Assembly: GCA_003246265.1 (NCBI GenBank)
Contig: QKAU01000017.1
Coordinates: forward strand, 1 to 64,000
Origin: Kiritimatiellales bacterium
GTDB lineage: Bacteria; Verrucomicrobiota; Kiritimatiellia; Kiritimatiellales; Pontiellaceae
Length of the DNA: 64,000 nucleotides
Direction of reading: 5' to 3'
Shown here: in pieces, positions 6,492-37,473 of the stretch
How the letters are laid out: each line of letters begins with the position of its first letter
Numbering within the stretch: the stretch's first letter is position 1
The notes under the pieces: model-generated
Seen by the model: the letters and a program-made list of their open reading frames with translations, nothing else
Database searches by the model: none
Told to the model about the DNA's origin: nothing
Translations under genes and position numbers: made by a program

Positions 6492-7703
6492 TTACTTCTG
6501 CCAGGCGGAAATCAGGGGAAGCGATTTCGTGGGGCTGACACTGCTTATGCCGGGCGGGGTGGGGATGCTCTGCTGGTAGACGATGATATCGGAAACGCCG
6601 CCCTTCTGAATGGGGCCGCCGACGATCAGCTGGCCGTAGAGTTCTCCGTTGGCCGTCTGCTTGTAGCTGCCGGACTTGGAATAGACGAGGCCGGTAATGC
6701 GACCGCTCGAGGTATTCTCGATATTGCCGGAATCGGTGGCCATGGCGATCGAATCGATGGTCGGCTTGATCTGGGCGGCACCGCTGATCTTGATGCTGCC
6801 GGTCGCGATGATCGAACCGTTGAAGACCGCATGGTCCGAAATCACCACGTCGCCGATCACATAGAGGATGCCGCCGTTGGGCGAATAGGATGTGGTGGTG
6901 GAGAAGCCGTTGTACACCTCGCCATGCTTCTTCGCCCAGTTGAAGTAGGGCGTGAGGTCGATGTCCGGGATCGAGACGGGGGGCACCGAGGCCGTGGCTG
7001 CGCCGTCCGTGATGGTCGCCTTTTTGTGTATATCGAGTTCGGGGGCCGTAACGCTGCCGTTCACGACGGTGTTGCCCACCGAGATCTCCACGCTGGAGGA
7101 CACGTTGACTTCCATCTGGGCCGATCCATTGATTTCGATGGCCGAATTGGAGTGCAGCTTTGCGTCGGGGGAGCCAAGTACCTCGCCGCACCCCTTGAAG
7201 TCGAAGACGCCGCCGGAAAGCACGGCATAGTTGAATCCTTCCATGTCGGCATAGTTCGGGGCCTCGTAGCCGCCGCTGCCGGCATAGATGTCTTCCACGA
7301 GCACTTCGGCCATCGCGGTCTCCTTCCCACACTGGCCGACCGAATTGACCACCACATAGCGGTTGCTGATGGAGGTAAGGGTCAGGTCGAAGGCACCTTC
7401 CCCGTATCCACTTTCGATGGAGGACAATTTGGCGGAGAGGAATCCGGAGCCTTCCGTGCCACCTTCCAGCGAAAAGGCCGATGGGTTGTTGCGCTGCTCG
7501 AAATCGGCCGAAAGGATGGCATAGGCGTAGTCGATTCCTGCCTCGGCGTAGGCCAGGGCCTTGGTCTGGTTGGTGAGGCGGCGCGCATCGAACGAGCGCT
7601 GCTGCCCGATATGCACAAGCATGCCGAGCGACAGTGCGAGTGCCGTCATGATGAACAGGACGGTCAGCAAGGCGTATCCCTGTCTGGTTTCATTGTGTTT
7701 CAT
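6492..7703 (-). CDS. PilX-like minor pilin / exported beta-helical protein
   Basis: 403 residues. The N-terminus QGYALLTVLFIMTALALSL is a type IV pilin-like hydrophobic helix of the PilX type, with a possible prepilin peptidase cut at Gly9. The remainder is rich in short beta strands with repeated Gly and hydrophobic residues (GDVVISDHAVFNGSII..), like the beta-helical domain found in PilX-type and bactofilin-like proteins. It is the last gene of a three-gene operon, 17 nt after the large pseudopilin, with a GGAGAG SD. It probably takes part in a type IV pilus or type II secretion pseudopilus, but the core secretion genes are not in this window. Confidence 0.68.
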   Translation of the reverse strand: MKHNETRQGYALLTVLFIMTALALSLGMLVHIGQQRSFDARRLTNQTKALAYAEAGIDYAYAILSADFEQRNNPSAFSLEGGTEGSGFLSAKLSSIESGYGEGAFDLTLTSISNRYVVVNSVGQCGKETAMAEVLVEDIYAGSGGYEAPNYADMEGFNYAVLSGGVFDFKGCGEVLGSPDAKLHSNSAIEINGSAQMEVNVSSSVEISVGNTVVNGSVTAPELDIHKKATITDGAATASVPPVSIPDIDLTPYFNWAKKHGEVYNGFSTTTSYSPNGGILYVIGDVVISDHAVFNGSIIATGSIKISGAAQIKPTIDSIAMATDSGNIENTSSGRITGLVYSKSGSYKQTANGELYGQLIVGGPIQKGGVSDIIVYQQSIPTPPGISSVSPTKSLPLISAWQK

Positions 7704-7720
7704 GCTTCATCTCTCCTTTC

Positions 7721-9790
7721 CTAGAGCCCGCTGTTGCGCGGGGTCAGCTCCACCTTCAACGACGATGTGATCCTGCGGTTTTCATGGTTCTTGGTAAGCG
7801 TGTCCTTGTAGATTTCCAGATCGACGATCAGCGCCGAGCGGAGCGGCTGTCCGTCGATGCTGATTTCGAAGACGCCGTAGTTCGGCCCCTTGGTGAAGAT
7901 GCCACCCACGTCCACCAGCTGCTTCTGGCCGGCCCAGCCGATCGCGACATCCTTGAGCACGGGGGATTCCAAGCCCTTTTCGTCCGACTCCATCAGGGCC
8001 TGGAACTGGATGTAGCGGTTGTAGGAAGCCGGCACCGTGCGAGGATAGGCGAAGGAGGTCAGCGTCTCGAAACTGTCGGCGTCGGAGAGGTCGGGCGCAT
8101 TGCCGGAACGGACCTTGAAGTTGAGCGCCGTACCGGACGGGACGTTCGCATGCCACGTGATGTCGCCATAGCGCGGCTTGGCGAGGTGGGTGTCGATCAC
8201 CTGGGAGGTGTAGGTGCCGTCCTCCGGATAGCCCACGAAAAGCGATTCCAATCCGAAGATGCGGTTTGTCGGAACAATGACGACCCCCTGGTCCTCCCAA
8301 TCCTTGTCGTTCGCGATCATGCTGCCGGCACCGGGGGCCAGGGTCGTCGCGAACAGGGCCAGGTTGGTCGAGCCGACATTCTGGTCCCGCCACATGCAGG
8401 GTGCGTCGTGGAGCGGATCGTTGGCGATGCTGTAGGCCACCACGTAGCTCTTTTCGCGGTCGATGGGCAGGTCGATCCAATCTGAAGTGGCGGGTCCGGT
8501 GACCAGCGTGGCCGACGCACCGGCAAAGGTGGCCTGTTCGACATCGGATTCGTCGTAGAAGCGGAAATCGACGCTGTTGGTGCTGATGCTTTCGCCAATG
8601 AAGACATTGCCGATGATCAACGAGGTTCCCGGCGCGGAGCGGAACGTCAATTTGCAGCGCCGGCCGTTCATGGAGATCCATCCGCCGGCCTGCTCCATGG
8701 CGGCCCCCTTGATGAGCGTGCGGACCGCGCAGTTCGCCATGGCCCCGTTGGTCACGCTGCCGGGCACGGGTGTGGCGGTCTGGGCGGCCGCCTCCCAGCT
8801 GGTGCCCATGCCGTTGAGACGGACGACATGGTCGCGTGGAACCAGCGTGCTGTCGAACTCGACGCGCGTGTCGTCCGCCTGGTAGCCGATGCCGATGAAG
8901 TTGGTCTCCTCCCACCGGTCGTTGGCCATCGACAGCGTGAAGGTGTGGCCGGGCGCCGAGGCGGGGAAGAGGAGCTGGTGACTTCCTTTCCACGAGCCTA
9001 CCGGCATGTATTGCGCAACGGCGGCCGCCCCGGACTGGCTTTTGGCGGGAAGCTGGGCCTCGCCTTCGCGGGGGCTGGCGGAAGGGGAGACAAAGAGCTG
9101 GTCGACGCCGATGTAGTAGCCGGACGCATCGCTGTTCTTTCCCACTGTCTTGAAGGTCACGTCGTGCATGCCGGGGTCGAGGAGCATGTAGCCGAGGCTG
9201 GCGCGGTCGCGGGTAAGCACCGGGGAATAGGCATCGAAGCGCCCGGCCTTGGGCTCGATCTTCCAATGGAGCAGGTTCTGGAAGATGACGTGGGAGCTGG
9301 CATTCTGCCCGTTGTAGGTGCCTGCGCCCGAACCGGTCTTGACGACCGCCTCGATCTGCGCCTGGCGCTGGGCATCTGACAGCGAGTTGTCGCGCGGCTT
9401 GAAGGTGGTCTTCACCAGCTGGTGCGGCGTGGTGGGGCGGACGTGGTAGACCACGGTTTCGTCCCACAGGATCTTGCCTTCGTCATCCTTTTCGAGGATG
9501 CCGTCGCCGTCGCTGTCGTAGGCTACCGGGAAACTGATCGCCTCGTAGGGGCCGCCTCCGGCCGGGTAGTAGAACATCGTGTCCAGGGAGGAGAGCCGCA
9601 GGTCGCGCTTCAGACGTTCCATCGCCAGTTGGACGTCGATGTCCAGATCGTTCTGGATGTCGGCTTCGTTGATGTTCTTGATCGAGTACATGTAGCCGCC
9701 GAGGGCCAATCCAATCGCGACTACCAGCAGGGCAATGGCAGCACTGACCTCCACCAAGGTGAAACCGCCGGATGTTTGTTGTTGGGTCAT
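7721..9790 (-). CDS. Very large PulJ/PilW-like pseudopilin
   Basis: 689 residues, about three times the size of ordinary minor pseudopilins. Residues 8-30 are a canonical class III signal (SGGFTLVEVSAAIALLV; cut after Gly9, Glu at +5) followed by the pilin helix. The first ~190 residues look like a PulJ/PilW core. The long C-terminal part contains beta-sandwich segments with a motif block around ~550-640 (YTSQVID, F.VRSGNAP, FQALMESD) of the type found in secreted carbohydrate-binding or lectin-like proteins. It lies 15 nt downstream of the smaller pseudopilin and 17 nt upstream of the PilX-like gene. A tip-located minor pseudopilin carrying a binding domain is the simplest reading. Confidence 0.72.
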   Translation of the reverse strand: MTQQQTSGGFTLVEVSAAIALLVVAIGLALGGYMYSIKNINEADIQNDLDIDVQLAMERLKRDLRLSSLDTMFYYPAGGGPYEAISFPVAYDSDGDGILEKDDEGKILWDETVVYHVRPTTPHQLVKTTFKPRDNSLSDAQRQAQIEAVVKTGSGAGTYNGQNASSHVIFQNLLHWKIEPKAGRFDAYSPVLTRDRASLGYMLLDPGMHDVTFKTVGKNSDASGYYIGVDQLFVSPSASPREGEAQLPAKSQSGAAAVAQYMPVGSWKGSHQLLFPASAPGHTFTLSMANDRWEETNFIGIGYQADDTRVEFDSTLVPRDHVVRLNGMGTSWEAAAQTATPVPGSVTNGAMANCAVRTLIKGAAMEQAGGWISMNGRRCKLTFRSAPGTSLIIGNVFIGESISTNSVDFRFYDESDVEQATFAGASATLVTGPATSDWIDLPIDREKSYVVAYSIANDPLHDAPCMWRDQNVGSTNLALFATTLAPGAGSMIANDKDWEDQGVVIVPTNRIFGLESLFVGYPEDGTYTSQVIDTHLAKPRYGDITWHANVPSGTALNFKVRSGNAPDLSDADSFETLTSFAYPRTVPASYNRYIQFQALMESDEKGLESPVLKDVAIGWAGQKQLVDVGGIFTKGPNYGVFEISIDGQPLRSALIVDLEIYKDTLTKNHENRRITSSLKVELTPRNSGL

Positions 9791-9805
9791 GATGTGTGCC
9801 GGTGT

Positions 9806-10297
9806 CTAGATCGAATTCGGGCTTACTCCGCCGCCCACCGACGACTCCTCGGTGAGGTATTCGGCGAAAAAAGTCCGCAACTGCTCCCTCTCGCCGGTGA
9901 AGGCCAGCTTCTTCCGGTTGCGGATTTCCACGGTGACCGCCATTTCGAGCAGGTTGCTGCTCACTTCGCTGACGGTGGTCGTGCGCCGGAAGTTCCCGTT
10001 CACGTCCGGCGCTCCGCTGGCATTGACCAGCACCTTGTCCTCGAGGAAATTATCCACCTGTCCAAATTCGAAGGTGCGGACCAGCTCGATGCGGCTCTTG
10101 GCGATGTTGATGGCCGCGTAGTGCTCGCGCGCCTTGTCGCTGAGCTTCTGGCTGGCGATGATGATTTTCGCCGCGCCGGTCACGAATACGGCGAGGATCG
10201 TAAGCGCAACCACGGTTTCGATCAGCGAAATTCCGGCCCGTTTACTGCTCTTTTCCAATGCTCTATTTGCCTGTGTCGCCAACATGGTTGAATACAT
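9806..10297 (-). CDS. PilV/GspI-like minor pseudopilin
   Basis: 163 residues. A basic leader ending KRAG is followed by ISLIETVVALTILAVFV, a prepilin peptidase site (cut after Gly22, Glu at +5) and pilin helix. The short C-terminal domain is beta-rich. It is the first gene of the minus-strand pilin operon. The start could also be the in-frame ATG at 10285, four codons in; neither has a strong SD, and the upstream promoter candidate leaves only a short leader for 10297. Confidence 0.72.
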   Translation of the reverse strand: MYSTMLATQANRALEKSSKRAGISLIETVVALTILAVFVTGAAKIIIASQKLSDKAREHYAAINIAKSRIELVRTFEFGQVDNFLEDKVLVNASGAPDVNGNFRRTTTVSEVSSNLLEMAVTVEIRNRKKLAFTGEREQLRTFFAEYLTEESSVGGGVSPNSI

Positions 10298-10481: not shown

Positions 10482-10510
10482 AACCGGACCTCGATTAACA
10501 AGGTCCGGTT
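10482..10510 (-). terminator. Intrinsic terminator downstream of the hexaheme cytochrome gene
   Basis: Ten-bp stem AACCGGACCT / AGGTCCGGTT with a 9-nt loop, 13 nt past the cytochrome stop. On the minus strand the stem runs into TTTTCGCC, a short T-run. The 225 bases between the cytochrome and pilin genes otherwise hold a small CCAGCA/TGCTGG hairpin at 10421-10437 and the pilin promoter candidate. Confidence 0.6.
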
Positions 10511-10522
10511 GACCGTGCCGAC

Positions 10523-13177
10523 TCAGCGACGGATGCGATAATACCGGTTTCCGCCGGTGGGCTGGCCTCCCGACGTCGCCTCGGTGAAGTCGTCGGTGAA
10601 GGAGCCGCTGGATCCGAAGGCTTCCAGCATGCCGTTGCCGAGGAACGATTGCCATACGGTATTGGAGCCGAGCTCGTCCGCATATTCGATCCAGTAGGTG
10701 TAGCCCGATACGGCGTTGAAGGCGACTCCCAGCTTTTCATCGACGGTCCATGCAAGGGCTTCGATCGAGAAGTTTTCCGGCCACCAGGCCTCGGTCATGA
10801 GCTCAGGCGGACAGCGATCGTTGGCCACCCAGAGATTGTAGAGGTTGGTCCCCGCGGCCGTGGTGCGGTTTTCGTTGAGAAGGAATTCGACGAATTCCTT
10901 GCTCGTACTTTGGTAGTAGAGGCGGACATGGGCGCTTTCAGCCCCCTCGGGCAGATCGAAAAAGGTTTCGTCCCAATACTGCCCGTCAGCGTAGTGATGG
11001 CCGGCCGGAGCGCCCCCGAACGTCTCGAAAGCTTCGTTGGAGAAACCGCGGGGCGGGATCCGGTTATCCTCGTAGACCTGGTTGTTGAGCACGAAGTGGA
11101 ACGAGGGTCCCGGCTCGATCGCGAGGTTGGTGTTGACGGTGTTGAGCACCGCCGCAAGGTTGGTCCCGATGCCGGGGTGGATCTCGTAGACCGTCGTATT
11201 GTTGGTCAGCAGGCCCGTGGCGCCATCGTAGCCGCCCCGCTCCGCAAGCAGGTTGTCTTCCCCGTCGTAGAAGCGGACGTTGATCCAGATCCGCCGGCCT
11301 TCCGGATAGCCGGTGGGCAGCTTGTGGCCCGTGTCGTTGATAACGAGCACCTTCAACTGTTCGCCCACCTTTTCGGCCTGCATGCGTGCCGCCTTGCGGA
11401 GCATGTATTCGGCACGATGGGTCCCGTTGGAAATCGCCTGGGCTTCCGCCGAGCCGGGGGCATAGGGGAATCCGGGCAGCCCGGGCAGCAGCCTGGGCAA
11501 CCATACGCTGCCGCCGGTCATGTCGTGCAGTGGCAGGTTTGGCCGCAGGGCCACCGAAGGATACTGGTTGGTGTCGGCGCCATGCCCCAGGATGTCCGGC
11601 AGGTGGCAGTCCTGGCAGGTGGCCACCATGCCGCCGTTCTTGTTTCCGGCAAACTGCGGCGCATAGACGCCGTTGGAAGTGTTGTACGCGCTGTGGAACC
11701 ATTCGCTATAGGTACGCTCCACCGGCATGAGGACCTCGGGACTGAAGTTGGTGGCCGGCGCATCGAACGCGTTGGCTACGTATTCGGTGTTGGTGCCGTC
11801 GCGCACGAATACCGGATTGCTGACGTTGTGGCAGGTGCCGCACAGGGCCGCCTCGCGGTGGAAGGGCGAGAAGAGGTCGGAATGGGGGCTTACGGAGTCG
11901 TTGAAGGGGCCGCGCCGGTGCGAGTTGGGATCGAAGACATACATGCCGTTGCCATCGCCCGACTGCGAGGGCACCTGTTCGAGGCTGTTGAGAATCTCCT
12001 GGTCTTCGGCGGGCGAGGTGCCCGGCTTGTAGACCGGGTCGACCAGCCGGTGGCAAAGATCGCAAGAGACGCCGAACATGTCCTGGGCGGTCATCTGGCT
12101 GCCGTCGGTCGGGGTGGAGCGGCCATCGAGCCAACCCCGCGAGTTGTGGCAGCGCAGGCAGAGGTCGCCGGAGTCGGGTGCATCCTGCTGGGCGATGGCC
12201 ATGTTGGCCTTGAAGATCGGGTCGTGGGATGCATGGGCCATCATGCTGCCCAGCCAGTTGCGGTAGGGCTCGTGCGCTTCGTTGTAGTTGCCATGGCAGG
12301 TTCCGCACGATCCCGGGTTCGCCTGCGGCAGCCCGGCATCGACGACCGGTTGCGAGCCAGGCTGGTCGAAATCGCGCAACGTCGTGGGGAAGGCGTTGGT
12401 TGACACAATGTAGAAGACGGCATCGCTCGTATCCGCACCGTCATTGCCCGCGTTGTCGATCGCCTCGACCTTCACCAGCGCGTTGCTGGTCGGGCGGTTG
12501 GAGACCTGCCACACATAGCTTCCGGGGGAGTTCGGGATGTTGATGGCGATAGGGGTGTATGTCGTTCCGTTATCCAGCGAGACCTTGATGGTAATACCCG
12601 CTATGCCGCTGGCGTCCGTCGCGGTCCAGGTGATGGTCAAGGGGGCGTTTCCCGTGGCGGTTTCGCTCCCGTTGGGAGCAAGGACATGCACGGCCGGATC
12701 CGTCGTGTCCTCTCCGCTGGCCGGGGTCAGGTGGGGCGTTAGGTCGCCCTGGCTGACATTGGAGACCTGTGCGACATTCCCCGCCGAAAGCCCAGGAAAG
12801 GTCGGGGCGTTGGCGTAGATGCGATTGGTGACCTCGTAGATGTTGGTGAAACCGTCGCCGTCGGAATCGTAGTTGGCGGCAAGGCGTACCGCCACATCGT
12901 AGTTCTTGTTCTGGCCGGATCCCACGTTGACTTCGACCTGCGCTCCAAAAGGATTTCGTGTTCCACCCCCGTTGAAGTCGTAATGGCAGACCCCGCAATG
13001 GTTGGCATGGCTGGGCACCGTATCGAGGACGGTCCCCGTGGCCGATGGATATTCCGTGAAAAAGGCATCCCGGATACCCGGTTTGGCATCCACGTGTCCA
13101 GTAGTCATCCATAGCATCGCAACAGCGATGACCGAACTGAATCCATGACGAAACAACCAACCGTCCCTTGCTTTCAT
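10523..13177 (-). CDS. Exported hexaheme c-type cytochrome with Ca-binding-like and Ig-like domains
   Basis: 884 residues from the ATG at 13177, which has GGGAGG seven bases upstream and directly precedes a signal peptide (SSVIAVAMLWMTT, cut near VDA). Six CXXCH haem c sites are visible: CGVCH (61-65), then CGTCH, CLRCH, CDLCH, CGTCH and CQDCH between about 290 and 525. Around 90-120 is an Asp-rich DSDGDG loop, and ~150-260 is an Ig/fibronectin-like beta domain (PNGSETATG..TITWTATDASG). The C-terminal ~300 residues lack haem motifs and end in a beta-rich tail with YWIEYADEL and RYYRIRR, a tail type shared with other secreted proteins of such genomes. The middle resembles cytochrome c-554/multihaem oxidoreductase folds. 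Likely a periplasmic or surface electron carrier or oxidoreductase; substrate unknown. Confidence 0.85.
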   Translation of the reverse strand: MKARDGWLFRHGFSSVIAVAMLWMTTGHVDAKPGIRDAFFTEYPSATGTVLDTVPSHANHCGVCHYDFNGGGTRNPFGAQVEVNVGSGQNKNYDVAVRLAANYDSDGDGFTNIYEVTNRIYANAPTFPGLSAGNVAQVSNVSQGDLTPHLTPASGEDTTDPAVHVLAPNGSETATGNAPLTITWTATDASGIAGITIKVSLDNGTTYTPIAINIPNSPGSYVWQVSNRPTSNALVKVEAIDNAGNDGADTSDAVFYIVSTNAFPTTLRDFDQPGSQPVVDAGLPQANPGSCGTCHGNYNEAHEPYRNWLGSMMAHASHDPIFKANMAIAQQDAPDSGDLCLRCHNSRGWLDGRSTPTDGSQMTAQDMFGVSCDLCHRLVDPVYKPGTSPAEDQEILNSLEQVPSQSGDGNGMYVFDPNSHRRGPFNDSVSPHSDLFSPFHREAALCGTCHNVSNPVFVRDGTNTEYVANAFDAPATNFSPEVLMPVERTYSEWFHSAYNTSNGVYAPQFAGNKNGGMVATCQDCHLPDILGHGADTNQYPSVALRPNLPLHDMTGGSVWLPRLLPGLPGFPYAPGSAEAQAISNGTHRAEYMLRKAARMQAEKVGEQLKVLVINDTGHKLPTGYPEGRRIWINVRFYDGEDNLLAERGGYDGATGLLTNNTTVYEIHPGIGTNLAAVLNTVNTNLAIEPGPSFHFVLNNQVYEDNRIPPRGFSNEAFETFGGAPAGHHYADGQYWDETFFDLPEGAESAHVRLYYQSTSKEFVEFLLNENRTTAAGTNLYNLWVANDRCPPELMTEAWWPENFSIEALAWTVDEKLGVAFNAVSGYTYWIEYADELGSNTVWQSFLGNGMLEAFGSSGSFTDDFTEATSGGQPTGGNRYYRIRR

Positions 13178-13328
13178 GGCAACCTCCCGTGCTAGGTACA
13201 ACCTAACGGCGATACAGAGGGCAATCAAGCATGCAAATAGTTTATATCAATGTATATACGTAAACAATGATCAATCTGCGAGTATATCGCGGAAGGCTGG
13301 CTACGTGCCCTGTACCGGACTACCCAGT

Positions 13329-14126
13329 TCAGTCGGCCTCGTGTTTACCACGCGTTGGAAACAACCGGCGGAAGGCAATCAGGCCTCCACCTGCGGCAAT
13401 CATTAGCGTAGCCACGGCCGGTTCCGGGATGTTTTCGGACAGGACGTTGCTGATCTGTTCCGTGAGCGATGCGCCGATGGGCGCATCCTTGGTGATGCTG
13501 CTATGCGAAGTGGAGGTGGAGAGCACGATGCGGATCTGGTTGATCTCGGAAACCCCGGTGGCGGACCTGAACTCGCTCCACGGTATCGCAAGGTCGATGT
13601 GGTAGTCGCCCGTGCCGAAGACCTGCGACCAGCGGGCGTACACGGCGGCGTCGCCTTTCCATGCCGTCGTGTTGCCACCGATATCGACATCCTGCAGCGT
13701 CGCGCCACCGACGCTGGTCTTGACCAGCATGACTCCATAGTCCTCGGGATTGCCCGATTGGACCAATTGGTAGATCCACTCCACGTTGCTCGCGTCGCCA
13801 TCCGTATCGAGATGGGCTTGCCAGACGTAGTTGCCCCCTTCGCCACCCATGCGCAGCCGCAACAGGAAGAGGTCGTCGAGCGTTCCGTTCGCATCGTGGC
13901 CATCCTGCACATGAGCCCAGTATCCCGCCGAATAGATGTTGGTTGTTCCGATGAGATCCACGGAAGCGGGGTTCTGGTCGCCGCGGTCGTCGGAGTAGAA
14001 GCCGGCCCCCTGCATCAGCGGGATCCAATCCCCCTCCTCCGGCCAGTACAAGTCGGCCATGGACGCGGTCGAAAGCAAGGCCAAAGAACAGGCAAGCAGC
14101 AGGTTGCGCCAGGATTTCGTATTCAT
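13329..14126 (-). CDS. PEP-CTERM sorted exported protein
   Basis: 265 residues from the ATG at 14126 (GGGGGTG SD upstream; an upstream in-frame start would put 11 extra residues before the signal peptide). N-terminal signal peptide LLLACSLALLSTASMA. The C-terminus is a textbook PEP-CTERM tripartite signal: IPEPA, a hydrophobic helix (TLMIAAGGG) and a basic RR cluster, which directs processing by an exosortase/archaeosortase-family enzyme not present in this window. The body resembles a beta-sandwich, with YWAHVQDGHDANGT and a W-rich segment; no catalytic motif seen. It lies upstream of the cytochrome gene on the same strand with a 151-nt gap, so it may be separately transcribed. Confidence 0.8.
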   Translation of the reverse strand: MNTKSWRNLLLACSLALLSTASMADLYWPEEGDWIPLMQGAGFYSDDRGDQNPASVDLIGTTNIYSAGYWAHVQDGHDANGTLDDLFLLRLRMGGEGGNYVWQAHLDTDGDASNVEWIYQLVQSGNPEDYGVMLVKTSVGGATLQDVDIGGNTTAWKGDAAVYARWSQVFGTGDYHIDLAIPWSEFRSATGVSEINQIRIVLSTSTSHSSITKDAPIGASLTEQISNVLSENIPEPAVATLMIAAGGGLIAFRRLFPTRGKHEAD

Positions 14127-14227
14127 TTCGACACCCCCTATGAGATCGCTGCTTACCATAAAGCAGGGAAGATGCCAGCCATTTCACCATGCGGCGCGAA
14201 ATCCTCGCCGGCGTTCGGTGTTTTGTC

Positions 14228-31773: not shown

Positions 31774-33006
31774 CTAGATGCCGAAGTCGTCGGCCATGAC
31801 CATGTCGGGCTCCACGCCGAGTTCATGGACCATGTCCTTGACGCACTTGAGCATGATCGGCGGTCCGCAGAGGTAGTATTCGATTTCCGTCGGGTCGGGA
31901 TGCTTGTCGAGGTATTCGTCGAGCACCACCTTGTGGATGAACCCGGTAGAGCCGGTCCAGCTGTCCTCGGGCAGCGGATCGCTGAGGGCGACATGCAGAG
32001 TGAAGTTGGGGAATTCCCTAGCCAGCGCCTCGAATTCGTCCATGTAGAATAGTTCGCGCTTGGACCGGCCGCCATACCAGAAGGTAATCTTGCGGTCGGA
32101 TCCGATGCGCTTGAGCTGGTCGTAGATGTGGGAACGCATCGGGGCCATGCCGGCGCCCCCTCCGATGAAGCACATCTCCCGGGCGGTCTTCTTCGCAAAA
32201 AACTCGCCGTAGGGTCCGGAGATCGTGATCTTGTCGCCCGGCTTGAGGTTGAAGACATAGCTCGAGCAGACCCCCGGCGGATAGCTGGTGCCGGGCGGCG
32301 GCGAGGCAATGCGGATGTTGAGCATGATGATATCGTCCTCGAGCGGGAAGTTGGCCATCGAATAGGCGCGGAAACAGGGCTCCTCGTTGTTCGCCACCAA
32401 GTCCCACATCTTGAACTTGTCCCAGTCGCCGCGGTATTCCTGGGCCACATCGAACGAGGAGTACTTCAGCCCGTCGTAGGCCGGAACGTCGATCTGGATG
32501 TAGCCGCCGGCGCGGAAGTCGAGTTTCTCGCCCTTCGGCAGTTCCACGACCAGCTCCTTGATGAAGGTGGCGACGTTGTCGTTCGAGCGCACGGTACACT
32601 CGTACTTCTTGATGTCGAGGATGGACGGTTCGATGTCGAGCTTGAGATCGTTCTTCACCTTCAGCTGGCACGCGAGGCGGACGCCTTCCTTGGCTTCGGC
32701 CTTGGTGACCTGTCCGGCTTCCGTGGGCAGCAGGTCGCCCCCGCCCTCCAGCACCTTGCACTTGCACATGGCGCAGGTGCCGCCGCCGCCGCAAGCGGAC
32801 GGCAGGAAGATCTTCTGGGAGGCCAGCGAGGAAAGCAGCGAGCTTCCGGGCTTCACTTCGACTTCCCGGTTGCCCTCGTTGATGTCCAGCTTCACGAGCC
32901 CCTGGGGAACCAGCTTCTTGGCCGCGACCATGAGCATGACCACCAGCAGCATGATCACCAGGGTGAAGACCGTCACGCTCGTTACGATATAGGTTACGTT
33001 TTCCAT
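31774..33006 (-). CDS. nqrF: Na+-translocating NADH:quinone reductase subunit F
   Basis: 410 residues. One N-terminal membrane helix (~5-28), a 2Fe-2S ferredoxin domain with Cys72-x5-Cys78-x2-Cys81 and Cys113, then an FAD/NADH reductase domain (RAYSMAN for FAD; GGGAGMAPMRSH for nucleotide; YYLCGPPIM near the end). NADH entry point of the complex. Last gene of the nqrABCDEF operon. Confidence 0.97.
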   Translation of the reverse strand: MENVTYIVTSVTVFTLVIMLLVVMLMVAAKKLVPQGLVKLDINEGNREVEVKPGSSLLSSLASQKIFLPSACGGGGTCAMCKCKVLEGGGDLLPTEAGQVTKAEAKEGVRLACQLKVKNDLKLDIEPSILDIKKYECTVRSNDNVATFIKELVVELPKGEKLDFRAGGYIQIDVPAYDGLKYSSFDVAQEYRGDWDKFKMWDLVANNEEPCFRAYSMANFPLEDDIIMLNIRIASPPPGTSYPPGVCSSYVFNLKPGDKITISGPYGEFFAKKTAREMCFIGGGAGMAPMRSHIYDQLKRIGSDRKITFWYGGRSKRELFYMDEFEALAREFPNFTLHVALSDPLPEDSWTGSTGFIHKVVLDEYLDKHPDPTEIEYYLCGPPIMLKCVKDMVHELGVEPDMVMADDFGI

Positions 33007-33027
33007 AGGATGCCGATCGGGTTCTGT

Positions 33028-33642
33028 TTAGAGGTTGATGCCGGAGAAGCACATGAAGGCCATGGCCATGAGACCGGTCATGATCATGGTGATGCCGAGG
33101 CCCTTGAGTCCGGAAGGCAGGTGAGAATAGCGGAGCTTCTTGCGGATGGCGGCCATCGAGCAGATGGCCAGCGCCCAGCCTGCACCGGAGCCGAAGCCGA
33201 ATACCGTGGCGGAAGCGAGGCTGTAGTCGCGTTCAACCATGAAGAGAGAACCGCCAAGGATGGCGCAGTTGACGGTGATCAGCGGCAGGAAGATCCCGAG
33301 CGCGTGGTAGAGCGCGGGGAAGAACTTGTCGAGGATCATTTCAACGAGCTGCACCATCGAAGCGATCGTCGCGATGAAGCAGATGAAGGTGAGGAAGCTC
33401 AGATCCAGCCCGCCCAGGTCCACGCCGGGCACCCATGAGAGGGCGCCGGGCCGCAGCAGGAAGTGGCGGATGGCCCAGTTTGCGGGAACCGTGATGGTCT
33501 GGACGAAGATGACCGCAAAGCCGAGTCCGAACGCGGTATCCACCTTCTTGGAACAGGCCAGGAAGGAGCACATGCCCAGGAAGTAGGCAAGCAGGATGTT
33601 CTCAATGAAGATCGATTTGATGGCTAGGCTTACATATTCCAT
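33028..33642 (-). CDS. nqrE: Na+-NQR subunit E
   Basis: 204 residues, six membrane helices. N-terminal [23 protein letters not shown] contains one of the two Cys that coordinate an iron centre with Nqr[16 protein letters not shown] is typical of NqrE. Membrane-embedded half of the NqrDE pair. Confidence 0.97.
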
Positions 33643-33648
33643 GACCGG

Positions 33649-34251
33649 CTACTCCTCGACGAATTTAGTGATGGTGCGCTGCAGCCAGATCAACAGGCCC
33701 AGGATGATGAAGGCGCCCGGGGCCAGCAGGGCCAGGCCGTTGCCCATGTAGTTTTCCGGCAGCAGCCTGAAGCCCAGCCAGGAGCCGAAGCCGAGGATCT
33801 CGCGGATCGAGGCCACGGCAATCAGGATGATGCCGTAGCCGATGCCGTTGCCCAGGCCGTCTAGGAGCGACTCCTTCGGCGGATTCTGGAGGGCGAAGGC
33901 TTCCGCGCGGCCCATCACGATGCAGTTCGTGATGATCAGGCCGACGAAGACGCTCAACTGCTTGCTGATGTCGAAGAGGTAGGCGCGCAGCAGCTGGTCG
34001 GCGACGATCACCAGCGAGGCGATGACCGCCATTTCGACGATCATGCGGATGCCGCTGGGAATCACGTTGCGCAGCAGCGAGATCACCACGTTCGAAAGCG
34101 AAACCACCGAAGTCAGCGCCAGCGCCATGACGATCGCGGTGTCGACCTTGACGGTAACTGCCAGCGCCGAGCAGATGCCCAGCACCTGCACCGTGATTGG
34201 ATTGTTGTCCGAGAACGGATCCATCAAAAGTTTTTTGGAAGCGGAAGCCAT
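33649..34251 (-). CDS. nqrD: Na+-NQR subunit D
   Basis: 200 residues, six membrane helices. [19 protein letters not shown] (iron-coordinating Cys region) and [13 protein letters not shown] are the family signatures. Homologous to RnfE, which occurs at the right edge of this window. Three-nt gap to nqrC and 6 nt to nqrE, so one operon. Confidence 0.97.
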
Positions 34252-34254
34252 ATG

Positions 34255-34893
34255 CTAGTTCCCCTTGATGTTGTTGAAGTAGTCGGCATAGAGGGCGGCA
34301 TCCCTGCGAAGCAGCTGCTGGACGCCCTTGCCGGTCAGCGTCGCACCCGAAATCCCGTCCACCGCGCTGTCGCCGGAGGCGGTGCCGGGCTTGGCCACCG
34401 CGAATTCGGCGGGCTTGCCGGAATGGTAGAGCTTCTTGCCGGTGAACTGCTTCTGGAACCACGCCTTTTCGATCTCGGCGCCAAGGCCGGGCGTTTCACC
34501 GTGCTTGTAGAAGCTGATGCCGGCGATGGTTTCGAGGTCGGACTCGAGCGACAAATAACCGTACAGCATGCTCCACAGCCCCTTGCCGGAAATGGGGAAG
34601 GCGTACTTGCTGGGCGCCTCCGCGCCGTCTTCCGTCCAGGTATAGATCGGCTGTTCCCCTTCGGGGGTGGAAGCCGTGGCTTGCTTCACGTGGGTCTCGA
34701 AGGTGGCTTCGATTGCCGGGCGCTCCATGGCGGAGGTGTCGATGCCGAAGGCCTTGACAATGTTCCGCTTGATGTCGAACTCCTCGTTCGACTTCTGCAT
34801 GGGTTCGAGGGTTTTGGCGGCACCGGAGAGCAGCAGGCTGCACGCCAGGCAGACCCCGGTGGCGAAAAGCAGGGTTTTGGATTCTTCACGCAT
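34255..34893 (-). CDS. nqrC: Na+-NQR subunit C (covalent FMN)
   Basis: 212 residues, a little shorter than the usual ~250. One N-terminal helix (LLFATGVCLACSLLLSGA), then a periplasmic domain. The flavin attachment motif is DGISGATLTGKGV, where the Thr of SGAT carries FMN added by ApbE; apbE is not in this window. Overlaps nqrB by 8 nt. Confidence 0.95.
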   Translation of the reverse strand: MREESKTLLFATGVCLACSLLLSGAAKTLEPMQKSNEEFDIKRNIVKAFGIDTSAMERPAIEATFETHVKQATASTPEGEQPIYTWTEDGAEAPSKYAFPISGKGLWSMLYGYLSLESDLETIAGISFYKHGETPGLGAEIEKAWFQKQFTGKKLYHSGKPAEFAVAKPGTASGDSAVDGISGATLTGKGVQQLLRRDAALYADYFNNIKGN

Positions 34894-36115
34894 TGTTCAA
34901 GGCCCTCGCGTAGGCGGTTCTCTTCTTGATGTGCGATTGGACAACGAAGTGGTCGACCAGCGGCGCCATCACGTTCATGAACAGGATGGCCAGCATGGCG
35001 CCTTCGGGATAGGCCGGGTTCGCCACGCGGATCAGGACGGTCAGTACCCCGATCATGAAGCCGTAGATCCATTTTCCGGCGTTGGTCGCCGCGCAGGAGA
35101 CGGGATCCGTGGCCATGAAGACGATGCCGAACAGGAAGCCGCCCATCGCCAGGTGGTAGTAGGAGGGGAGGGCGGCAAAGGCGTTGTCGGTGGGCAGGGC
35201 ATTGAAGAGCGCTCCCATGGCCAGGCAGCCAAGGATCCCGCTGACCATCACGCGCCAGGAGGCGATGCCGGTCAGGATCAGGAAGCCCATCCCGAGGAGG
35301 ATGGCGATGACCGAACTCGACCCGATGCAGTCGGGCACATTGCCGACCGTCATGTTCATGAGCGTGTAGCCCTGGTGGCTGAGCGCGGCGACGGCATCGC
35401 CTCCATGCTCTGTCGCGGCCGCCACGGCCAACGGAGTGGCGCGCGAGACCACGTCGGTGTATTCGCCGGCCATGCCGAGGATGTGGTTGACGATCGGCGA
35501 GTCCTTCAGCGAACCCACCCAAACCTGGTCGCCGGAAATCTGCGCCGGATAGGCGAAGAAGAGAAAGGCGCGCGCGGTGAGCGCTGGGTTGAGGATGTTG
35601 TACCCGACGCCTCCGAAGATCTCCTTGCCGATCACTATGCCGAACGAGATGCCGACCGCCACCTGCCACAACGGAAGGGTGGGCGGGAGCACCAGCGGAA
35701 ACAGCATTCCGGTTACGAGGAAGCCTTCGTTGATCTCGTGGCGCCGCACGATCGCGAAGAGCACTTCCCAAATGCCGCCCACCAGATAGGAGACGATGAC
35801 GATGGGTAGCACCATTGCCGAGCCGCGCAGCAGGTCGGCTGTCAGGGTCGGCTCGATGCCGTTGGCCAGGTTGAACTGGTTTCCGGCGTTCCAGATTCCG
35901 AATAGCAGACAGGGCAGCAAGGCATAGATGACGAAGACCATCAGCCGCTTCTGGTCGATCGAGTCGCGCACGTGCGGCGCGCCGGACGTCACTTCGGCAG
36001 GCGTTCGGGCAAAGGTGTCGCCCGCCTCGAAGAGCGGGTAGAGCCGCTCCAGTTTGCCGCCCTTTTCAAACAGGGGGGCGACATGCTTATCCATCAGGTC
36101 GAATAGAAATTTCAT
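34886..36115 (-). CDS. nqrB: Na+-NQR subunit B (membrane core, covalent FMN)
   Basis: 409 residues with about ten membrane helices. N-terminal DKHVAPLFEKGGKLERLYPL and later GREWTDG-equivalent region. VVSRATPLA has the S-x-A-T pattern expected for the FMN-carrying Thr. Start shares one base with the nqrA stop (TGATG); SD is GGAGGAAGGA. Part of the Na+ pathway. Confidence 0.96.
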   Translation of the reverse strand: MKFLFDLMDKHVAPLFEKGGKLERLYPLFEAGDTFARTPAEVTSGAPHVRDSIDQKRLMVFVIYALLPCLLFGIWNAGNQFNLANGIEPTLTADLLRGSAMVLPIVIVSYLVGGIWEVLFAIVRRHEINEGFLVTGMLFPLVLPPTLPLWQVAVGISFGIVIGKEIFGGVGYNILNPALTARAFLFFAYPAQISGDQVWVGSLKDSPIVNHILGMAGEYTDVVSRATPLAVAAATEHGGDAVAALSHQGYTLMNMTVGNVPDCIGSSSVIAILLGMGFLILTGIASWRVMVSGILGCLAMGALFNALPTDNAFAALPSYYHLAMGGFLFGIVFMATDPVSCAATNAGKWIYGFMIGVLTVLIRVANPAYPEGAMLAILFMNVMAPLVDHFVVQSHIKKRTAYARALNNA

Positions 36116-37473
36116 CAGATTCCTTCCTCCGCAATCTCGTCCAGACCGCGCTTGATGATTCTGCAGACGTCCGTCTTGTGCGGATCGACGAACGCGGCCA
36201 GCGCAAAGTCCTCCGGATCGGTTTCAAGGATGCCAAGCTGGATCGCCTCCTCGGAATCATGGGCGAGCACGGCCCGGATGAGGTAGTCGGTCAGGATGTT
36301 GAGCGGCTGGTAGCGGTCCATCCATCCGGTCACCACCATGGCGCGATGGCTGCCATGCAGGTTGGTCCCCAGCTTCCACTCGTGCGTCAGCCCGAGCGCC
36401 GAGGAGAGGTTCACGCGATGGGCGCTGTATTGGAAGAGCCCCGGCGTGGTCCATCCCAGCAGGTGGCGCGAGCGGTCCTCCTCGAGGATGAAGTATTCCG
36501 ATCCATAATAGCGCACGTGGGAGTCGGCTTTTACGGCTTCGCCAGAGAGCACGTTTCCGGCCACGATGCGCACTTCGCCTTCCTCGATGACCTTTTTGAA
36601 CAGCGCACCGAGGCTTGCACCGAGCTGCACCTTGTAGTGCTGCCGGAACGCCTCCTTGACGGCCGGTCCGCCTAGGGCGATGACCTTGGTGCGCGGCAGT
36701 TCGCCGGTCAGCAGGAGCTTGCCGATCAACACGACGTCCTGGGCCGCGACCGTGTAGACTGTGTCGTGCGGACGAATGGGGCTGATGCGGTTGATATGTA
36801 CGCTGGTGTTGCCCGACGGATGGGGGCCGCCAAAGGTGTGGCTTTCCGCATGGGGGAAATCGGGAATGCTGGATCCGGCCTGCTTGCAGAGATGCACCTT
36901 GCCGTCGGTAAGGCGCGAGAGGGCATTGATCCCGGCCTGGAAAGCGCTTTCATCGCCCTTCAATATCGCAGAGAAATCGGCCTGGAACGGTGCGGAGCCC
37001 GCGGCATTGATGAAGACGGCCTTGGGGGCGAGGTCGGGGTTGGCGATCCGGGAGAACGGCCGCTGCCTGATCCATGGCCAAACGCCCGCGTCGAGCAGGT
37101 AGGCCACCACCTTTTCCCGGGGCAACGACGCGATCGCATCCTTGGAAAAGGCCTCGAAGGCAACGCTTTCGTTGCGGAGAGGGTCGCGTTCGATCACGAT
37201 TTCCAAAGGGAAGCGGCGGGCACCGAGGTTGATCGCCTTGACGGTTCCGCAACACGGCGAGCGGAACAGCATGCGCTCGTCCTTCTTGTTTTCAAACAGC
37301 ACATCGCCGAACTTCACGGCGTCGCCTGCCTGTACCCTCAGACGGGGCTTGACCCCCTCGAATTCGGCCGGGTAGACCGCGAATTCCTGCTGGGGGGCGT
37401 ACTCTTCGACTTCCGGGCGCGGCTTGCCTATCACCTTGATGTCGAAGCCTTTTTTGATTTTGAACTGGGCCAA
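36115..37473 (-). CDS. nqrA: Na+-NQR subunit A
   Basis: 452 residues. TTG start with GAGGA upstream, giving MAQFKIKKGFDIKVIGKP. PAEFEGVKPRLRVQAGDAVKFGDVLF is a barrel-sandwich-like part; RPFSRIA and GKLLLTGELPRTKVIALGG are conserved. Cytoplasmic peripheral subunit next to the quinone site. First gene of the operon; the 127-nt gap upstream should hold the promoter, but no strong sigma-70 match stands out. Confidence 0.96.
   Translation of the reverse strand: MAQFKIKKGFDIKVIGKPRPEVEEYAPQQEFAVYPAEFEGVKPRLRVQAGDAVKFGDVLFENKKDERMLFRSPCCGTVKAINLGARRFPLEIVIERDPLRNESVAFEAFSKDAIASLPREKVVAYLLDAGVWPWIRQRPFSRIANPDLAPKAVFINAAGSAPFQADFSAILKGDESAFQAGINALSRLTDGKVHLCKQAGSSIPDFPHAESHTFGGPHPSGNTSVHINRISPIRPHDTVYTVAAQDVVLIGKLLLTGELPRTKVIALGGPAVKEAFRQHYKVQLGASLGALFKKVIEEGEVRIVAGNVLSGEAVKADSHVRYYGSEYFILEEDRSRHLLGWTTPGLFQYSAHRVNLSSALGLTHEWKLGTNLHGSHRAMVVTGWMDRYQPLNILTDYLIRAVLAHDSEEAIQLGILETDPEDFALAAFVDPHKTDVCRIIKRGLDEIAEEGI

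Follow-up and report, generated by a model that had tools for sequence, protein, structure and literature searches.

A hexahaem cytochrome of a Kiritimatiellales bacterium that joins a predicted c552/ExtKL-type pentahaem core to N-terminal haem, Ig-like and C-terminal tail modules

The window analysed here is a stretch of 64,000 nucleotides from a Kiritimatiellales bacterium (assembly GCA_003246265.1, contig QKAU01000017.1, positions 1 to 64,000 of the forward strand), whose genome is available as a 2.997-Mb draft in 81 contigs. Our subject is a hexahaem cytochrome gene within this window, the parts of which are collected in Table 1. Its product contains exactly six CXXCH motifs, at residues 61, 291, 340, 372, 446 and 521, which hold 12 of the 13 cysteines of the chain; there is no CXXCK in its 884 residues, and no in-frame stop interrupts the open reading frame (ORF). 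According to the initial annotation of this DNA, one exported chain combines six CXXCH sites with an Asp-rich loop, an Ig-like part and a C-terminal region of considerable length; both the reading frame and the conservation of its parts bear out this combination, and the chain is apparently exported.

Table 1. Features of the hexahaem cytochrome gene and its immediate surroundings (window coordinates)
Feature	Position	Strand	Basis or remark
Hexahaem cytochrome gene, 884 aa, apparently exported	10523..13177	-	Single ORF; relatives carry the same parts in one ORF
Shine-Dalgarno-like GGGAGG	13183..13188	-	5 nt ahead of the ATG, from the sequence
Signal-peptide-like N terminus, residues 1-31, ending in VDA, without lipobox Cys	13085..13177	-	By eye
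N-terminal haem site CGVCH, residues 61-65	12983..12997	-	Present in 49/70 rows
DSDGDG calcium-binding-like loop, residues 104-109	12851..12868	-	Conservation in alignment A3
Ig/FnIII-like domain, residues 156-259	12401..12712	-	Sub-cut-off match to Pfam Big_7 and structure matches
Predicted pentahaem core of c552/ExtKL type, residues 262-800	10778..12394	-	Core model, 5ze8 and Foldseek matches
Core haem site 1, CGTCH, residues 291-295	12293..12307	-	70/70 rows
Core haem site 2, CLRCH, residues 340-344	12146..12160	-	70/70 rows
Core haem site 3, CDLCH, residues 372-376	12050..12064	-	70/70 rows
Core haem site 4, CGTCH, residues 446-450	11828..11842	-	70/70 rows
Core haem site 5, CQDCH, residues 521-525	11603..11617	-	70/70 rows
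Signature loop GHKLPTGYPEGRR, residues 617-629, including Y624	11291..11329	-	Conservation and weak profile alignment
C-terminal tail domain, residues 801-884	10526..10777	-	Common to 9 Kiritimatiellota/Verrucomicrobiota relatives (alignment A6)
12-bp hairpin directly 3' of the stop, stem followed by only UU, weakly terminator-like	10482..10510	-	Folding energy

The central part of the protein is predicted to be a known pentahaem fold, that of the c552/ExtKL type. A model of the full-length chain (mean predicted local distance difference test score, pLDDT, 82.3; predicted template modelling score, pTM, 0.77) matched the pentahaem cytochrome c552 structure 5ze8 with Z 21.9 over 332 residues spanning 281-800. 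A model of the core only (residues 262-800, 70 sequences; mean pLDDT 89.5, pTM 0.91) matched the same structure with Z 22.9 over 333 aligned residues at 3.0 Å and 23% identity, the next match reaching Z 9.1. Foldseek gave the same first place to 5ze8 (E 6.2e-16, next match 8.2e-3) when it was run with the core alone, which was needed as searches with the full-length model were swamped by the Ig-like and other small beta domains. The structure matches listed do not include AvECN, OmcS or MccSep, a result that excludes none of them. The "long haem-free C-terminal part" of the initial annotation is present, but because the core model matches 5ze8 over 333 residues, most of it belongs, in the model, to this pentahaem fold as its beta domain.

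A relationship to ExtKL is also visible at the level of profiles. All 41 members chosen for this comparison match the NCBIfam ExtKL model NF040886 weakly (E 0.01 or better, best 1.9e-10), yet the window protein scores 20.9 bits against a cut-off of 250, with residues 513-645 aligned to model positions 239-336, and its locus is the fourth of five weak matches when its own genome is ranked against the model. On these grounds the sequence comparison makes the window protein kin of ExtKL rather than a member. The five core CXXCH motifs, the C-terminal beta domain and the predicted c552 fold together make it a probable member of the c552/ExtKL pentahaem (PHC) superfamily, whereas two marks of ExtKL proper are missing: the cut-off score is not reached, and the position aligned with the selenocysteine in the GHxxPxG-U loop is a tyrosine in 70/70 rows of our alignment. 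Outside the CXXCH motifs, five core histidines are kept in at least 40 of the 70 rows, namely H432, H551 and H618 in 70/70 and H440 and H694 in 67/70 (H440 is lost in L092, L094 and L098, H694 in L092, L094 and L109, so that both are lost in L092 and L094). To judge from this conservation, these five histidines could suffice to cap the five core haems.

The relatives on which these counts rest were obtained by scanning a species-genome collection; of 352 matching stretches, the best 80 were retained. A simple gene finder yielded an ORF at 77 of the 80 loci, the three that yielded none (L071, L081 and L097) being excluded; some of the 77 ORFs are cut by contig ends, and that of L095 is split across two frames. 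Six CXXCH motifs were counted in 54 of these ORFs, five in 20 and four in 3. The main alignment has 70 rows, comprising the window protein and 69 relatives with a complete core, and in it the five core haem sites are present in 70/70 rows, the N-terminal haem in 49/70 and the Ig-like region in 57/70. Since the core sites are kept in every row and the N-terminal site in 49, a chance occurrence of the CXXCH motifs is ruled out. A mis-joined gene, a possibility which the initial annotation had itself raised, was rejected: the N-terminal haem and the core share one ORF in those same 49 rows. The 12 rows that lack both the N-terminal haem and the Ig-like region (L108, L112-L115, L117, L118, L120-L122, L124 and L125) consist of core and tail and form exactly one supported clade (100/99), drawn from Zixibacteria, Bacteroidota, a Latescibacterota bin and a bin without a named group. 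Among the other 9 rows that lack the N-terminal haem are some that lie at contig edges or are split between frames. There are thus at least three designs: core and tail; Ig-like domain, core and tail; and N-terminal haem, Ig-like domain, core and tail.

The relatives span nine named phyla. The 70 rows of the tree are made up of Planctomycetota (33), Verrucomicrobiota (8), Zixibacteria (7), Eisenbacteria (5), Bacteroidota (3), Kiritimatiellota (2 and the window protein), Krumholzibacteriota (2), Latescibacterota (1), Myxococcota (1) and 7 rows without a group, and the carriers include cultured strains such as Mangrovibacterium marinum and Aestuariivivens sediminicola. Because the phylum labels need only 9 changes on this tree against a minimum of 8 (3 changes each for Planctomycetota and Zixibacteria), the core has mostly followed its hosts. 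The single Myxococcota row forms a close pair with a planctomycete bin and may reflect either a transfer or a binning error. The core of the window protein groups with two Pontiella rows with support 100/100, a placement that speaks for Pontiellaceae (Kiritimatiellota) as the likely origin of the window. The combination of N-terminal haem, Ig-like domain and core is therefore a real design, widespread in many uncultured lineages and as yet unnamed. For the whole architecture, no characterised homologue was found in the open-access literature searched, which falls short of proof that this branch is undescribed; characterised relatives were found for the core only. The description of the design as unusual in the initial annotation therefore holds only in part: its core is a known fold, of c552/ExtKL type, and its combination of modules recurs in 49/70 rows.

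The region ahead of the core was examined in alignment A3, which contains the window protein, 34 of 48 six-haem relatives and 6 five-haem ones, giving 35 six-haem rows. In all 35 of these the N-terminal haem site is present and is directly preceded by a histidine (H60). The DxDxDG loop that follows is similarly constrained, with D106 and D108 invariant, one Glu at D104 and one Ser at G109. Known families are approached at a distance: among the 41 chosen members, the N-terminal module matches the GEGP dihaem model NF041762 weakly in 33 and the Pfam domain Temptin_C (PF24784) weakly in 8, and the window protein itself lies far below both cut-offs (18.4 of 300 bits and 16.3 of 27 bits, respectively). 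The GEGP family is dihaem, whereas the N-terminal module of the window protein has one haem. Within window positions 12851-13000, a GGGxRNPFG motif and the DSDGDG motif stand with the haem site in an arrangement that resembles the C-terminal domain of temptin, an animal pheromone protein. The Ig-like domain scores 19.1 bits against a Pfam Big_7 cut-off of 24.1, with 33/41 chosen members at E 0.01 or better, and in the model it matches solved Ig/FnIII-like modules with Z 12.5 (9kvu) and 12.2 (3pdd).

Beyond residue 800, what the proteins carry depends on their lineage. Planctomycete tails were scanned for 26 of the 33 rows, and 12 of these 26 match Dockerin_1 at E 0.001, their consensus being a doubled calcium-loop pattern. 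A second scan covered 24 of 26 rows from Eisenbacteria, Krumholzibacteriota, Zixibacteria, Latescibacterota, Bacteroidota and bins without a named group; in these 24 tails Por_Secre_tail was matched 16 times, FlgD_ig 16 times and Dockerin_1 twice. Excluded from these scans were five short tails (L056, L076, L095, L099 and L100), two that contig ends truncate (L057 and L115) and also L064, L065 and L110. Strictly phylum-bound tails were rejected on account of the two non-planctomycete Dockerin_1 matches and of the Verrucomicrobiota row L110, whose tail of 244 residues is different. This pattern argues that many of the relatives are secreted or located at the surface, and a surface placement of the window protein may be proposed by analogy with them. 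Residues 815-884 of the window tail, whole or in part, match one ORF each in three related genomes (G031, G052 and G057), so that the tail is not wholly private to the cytochrome family; a role as a genome-wide sorting tag in the host organism was unsupported, there being one copy only.

The most constrained part of the core lies in its beta domain. The 18-residue stretch 614-631, which holds GHKLPTGYPEGRR, has more invariant positions than any other (11/18, against 62/539 for the core overall). Within it Y624 is Tyr in 70/70 rows and also in 8 aligned five-haem paralogues from related genomes; in three five-haem proteins of greater distance the loop runs GHKFPTGYP, AHNVPTGF and GHAVPTGF. In a profile of the beta domain the loop aligns with GHSIPDG-U325-PTPNR of the solved multihaem selenoprotein MccSep at a weak E of 1 (U325 being printed as X in the record and as A in the deposited structure of the U325A mutant), and GHKLPTGYP aligns with PHAMPTGAP of c552 at a similarly weak E of 1.9. 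Because the register is exact, the ExtKL model match covers 513-645 and the fold is common with c552, we infer that Y624 corresponds to U325. The conserved loop may be either a reaction site or merely a segment that packs against a haem.

The neighbourhood of the gene is as follows. Upstream lies a gene at 13329-14159 (276 aa) that is PEP-CTERM-like by eye and matches no family model, followed by divergent genes that, judged by sequence, are probably etfB, etfA, thioredoxin reductase and acyl-CoA dehydrogenase. Downstream, at 6492-10297, are three pseudopilin-like genes, PilV/ComGE-like, 689-aa prepilin-like and GspK-like, all recognised by weak hits and the middle one by a weak NCBIfam hit only. 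The gene cluster of ExtKL contains an outer-membrane porin (extI); no porin was recognised among the pseudopilin-like genes, the 276-aa gene and etfBA that neighbour the cytochrome, and no barrel prediction was made for them. The pseudopilin trio follows the cytochrome in 6 of 7 genomes that have it (G000, G003, G005, G007, G013 and G018), the contig ending first in the seventh (G023), and the opposite flank carries etf genes in G000 (the host genome), G005 and G023; pilus or secretion assembly-like and regulator-like genes (by eye) lie upstream in G018 and G013. An operon with the trio was unsupported, given the hairpin after the stop, an opposite-strand ORF between the cytochrome and the trio in G005, and the near absence of such genes elsewhere: within two places of the cytochrome in the 77 relative loci, 1/239 ORFs fits a simple prepilin pattern (the Pontiella locus L047). 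The hairpin, within a 56-nt stretch of -30.9 kcal/mol, has z -4.43 and was equalled by 1/200 shuffles; it was not among the 4 finds of a consensus terminator scan, themselves no more than chance, and a promoter scan found none. We treat the trio as stable synteny within the genus, which is no proof of a common task. In other phyla the recurrent neighbours are limited to a MauG-like gene (4 loci) and members of the very common response regulator family (11 loci). The former is a dihaem gene, MauG/cytochrome c peroxidase-like by eye, that adjoins the cytochrome at L057, L060, L065 and L079. At L096, an Eisenbacteria bin, a 426-aa ORF with 8 CXXCH motifs lies 236 bases upstream on the same strand.

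Related genomes also contain a five-haem paralogue with the same core and without the N-terminal haem or Ig-like domain (L028:10604-13078, and L026, L031-L033, L035-L037 and L044). It shows 32-34% identity in 8 aligned proteins and adjoins etfB in 4/9 loci (L028, L031, L035 and L037); in G005 the cytochrome and this paralogue each sit between pseudopilins and etf genes. No second match to the cytochrome was found in the host genome at E 0.01. The host does encode a cytochrome c assembly protein and, on another contig (C10, 800-14400, locus L128), a cluster of multihaem genes: a 12-haem ORF with c7/MtrC-like hits and a lipobox-like Cys by eye, with an adjoining 456-aa ORF without family hits; a 9-haem protein with TSP3 repeats; a 4-haem ORF; a 6-haem protein like NapC/NirT; and a pair of ORFs, with 19 and 11 CXXCH, that both match cytochrome b561, below the Pfam cut-off in the first and above it in the second. 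Through this cluster electrons could pass from quinone to the cell exterior. Of the respiratory complexes that the initial annotation had placed in the same region, a complete nqrA-F set is found at 31774-37473 on the - strand, about 18.6 kb from the cytochrome with other genes between; for Rnf there was none above cut-off among the 29 window ORFs scanned, a subset of the total. Some NQR subunits match Rnf models below cut-off, which may be the source of the Rnf claim.

In our view the protein is an exported multihaem cytochrome that most likely works at or outside the outer membrane, as a surface electron relay or a terminal reductase. Its architecture is secure, and to this function we give about even odds (a probability near 0.5). 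The chain would be exported by Sec and its haems inserted in the periplasm; the five core haems would pass electrons along a packed cluster, which would be positioned on the surface or in the matrix by three parts: the N-terminal haem domain including its calcium-type loop, the Ig-like spacer, and the tail. The sixth, N-terminal haem would be an added entry or exit point, and electrons would arrive from the multihaem proteins of contig C10 and leave to an extracellular acceptor. The link to surface redox chemistry or extracellular electron transfer suggested in the initial annotation is supported by the fold, by the lineage-specific tails of the relatives and by the multihaem cluster elsewhere in the genome, and it remains a prediction. 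Several observations weigh against it. The localisation, haem binding and activity of the window protein are themselves predictions; its tail has no Pfam or NCBIfam match and is present in a single copy in its own genome; no other CXXCH gene lies beside the cytochrome in the window; and no same-strand partner recurred across the 77 loci with the simple ORF finder. Core relatives also occur in Flavobacteriaceae such as Aestuariivivens, which are not known as metal respirers. Also against it, Kiritimatiella glycovorans reduces metals without c-type cytochrome genes (PMC7356697), and for this reason the metal-reduction phenotype does not point to the window cytochrome. In its favour stand, besides the points above, the kinship with ExtKL, the five conserved core histidines for five core haems, the cytochrome c assembly protein of the host and a report that cultured Pontiella reduced ferric citrate, whose authors predicted periplasmic or extracellular c-type cytochromes (PMC7356697).

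Other functions can be set against this one. The protein could be a reductase whose substrate is small and soluble, either a peroxide or an oxyanion (selenite, for example), with the Y624 loop as the reaction site beside one haem and the other haems feeding it, as the selenocysteine loop of ExtKL/MccSep may do. The exceptional invariance of the loop and the alignment of Y624 with a residue whose mutant structure is deposited speak for this, as does the proposal of selenite reduction that the authors of ExtKL make in the available text of PMC5877670; in addition, the loss of H440 and H694 in a few members means that not every haem need be six-coordinate in all of them, and the MauG/peroxidase-like dihaem gene is adjacent in 4/77 loci. 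However, the five conserved histidines could cap all core haems without leaving an open one, the residue of c552 at the loop position is Ala, the alignment with MccSep is by itself weak, and two of the four peroxidase-linked loci (L057 and L065) are sisters. We regard such a reductase as possible but doubtful. A periplasmic electron-storage or shuttle cytochrome like ExtKL, with the extra domains binding polysaccharide or peptidoglycan, appears unlikely: ExtKL is termed periplasmic in the passages cited from PMC6148476, a point that also counts against a surface location, and in the window protein neither a lipobox (by eye) nor a sorting tail was recognised, but many relatives carry T9SS-type or dockerin-type tails typical of secreted or cell-surface proteins. 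Still less probable is a filament-forming cytochrome whose subunits stack into an extracellular wire like the archaeal extracellular cytochrome nanowires. Small pentahaem relatives of ExtKL resemble AvECN in haem arrangement (PMC11976967, in part) and the window protein is modelled with the same c552-type fold; the large N- and C-terminal domains could block head-to-tail stacking, and if one histidine per core haem is supplied within the chain, none need be donated by a neighbour.

A surface relay or reductase remains our preferred interpretation, and its significance lies in its distribution. Pentahaem proteins of the c552/ExtKL type have already been described in Geobacter, cable bacteria and one purple bacterium; what is added is a big branch, undescribed within the literature searched, in Planctomycetota, Verrucomicrobiota, Kiritimatiellota, Eisenbacteria, Zixibacteria and Bacteroidota, often with surface-type modules. 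Little extracellular redox chemistry is known from these lineages, and the branch would be a marker of such chemistry in them if the surface placement is true. A bolder proposal, which we advance as speculation and consider improbable, is that of a large family of solitary, surface-displayed pentahaem enzymes in nine or more phyla, in which the invariant Tyr, in place of the ExtKL/MccSep selenocysteine, would act at the haem cluster on an extracellular substrate, reducing or oxidising it, while the N-terminal haem, calcium-type and Ig-like parts and the exchangeable tails would mount this engine on diverse surfaces.

The known systems nearest to the window protein are not those named in the initial annotation, from which it differs in haem count and motifs. 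NrfA has a CXXCK active-site haem, and the window protein has no CXXCK. Hydroxylamine oxidoreductase has eight haems including a Tyr-crosslinked P460, against six CXXCH here, and the octahaem tetrathionate reductase model (TIGR04315, eight haems, cut-off 375 bits) leaves the window protein unmatched and is matched weakly by 2/41 members. MtrC and OmcA are outer-membrane decahaem proteins with about ten haems, beta domains and a lipoprotein anchor. Their model PF22113 matches the window protein at 27.9 bits against a cut-off of 30, but with six haems, a signal sequence without a lipobox Cys by eye and a best structural match to c552, it does not belong with them. The literature on the closer relatives, as far as the excerpts cited here extend, places ExtKL and Gsu2801 in a single family with cable-bacteria pentahaem cytochromes that bear an Ig-like domain, reports that the small pentahaem forms are structurally similar to c552 and also to AvECN, an archaeal nanowire, the latter in haem arrangement, and treats AvECN, with four haems, as distant structural kin (PMC11976967); the window protein has a five-haem core and a sixth haem instead. 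ExtKL itself is described as pentahaem (PMC5877670, PMC6148476), as encoded in a cluster tied to Geobacter metal reduction (PMC6148476) and as present in outer and cytoplasmic membranes (PMC5877670). The c552 of Thermochromatium tepidum (5ze8, 385 residues in the library chain) likewise has a five-haem core and a C-terminal beta domain; since it is aligned to window residues 281-800 only, it has no counterpart of the N-terminal haem, the Ig-like part or the tail. ExtKL and MccSep (9wt8) have the GHxxPxGxP loop in common with the window core, with selenocysteine where the window protein has Tyr, and it is the window protein that adds an N-terminal haem module and a tail. Together MccSep/ExtKL, the present branch and c552 naturally offer a comparison of Sec, Tyr and Ala at one defined position.

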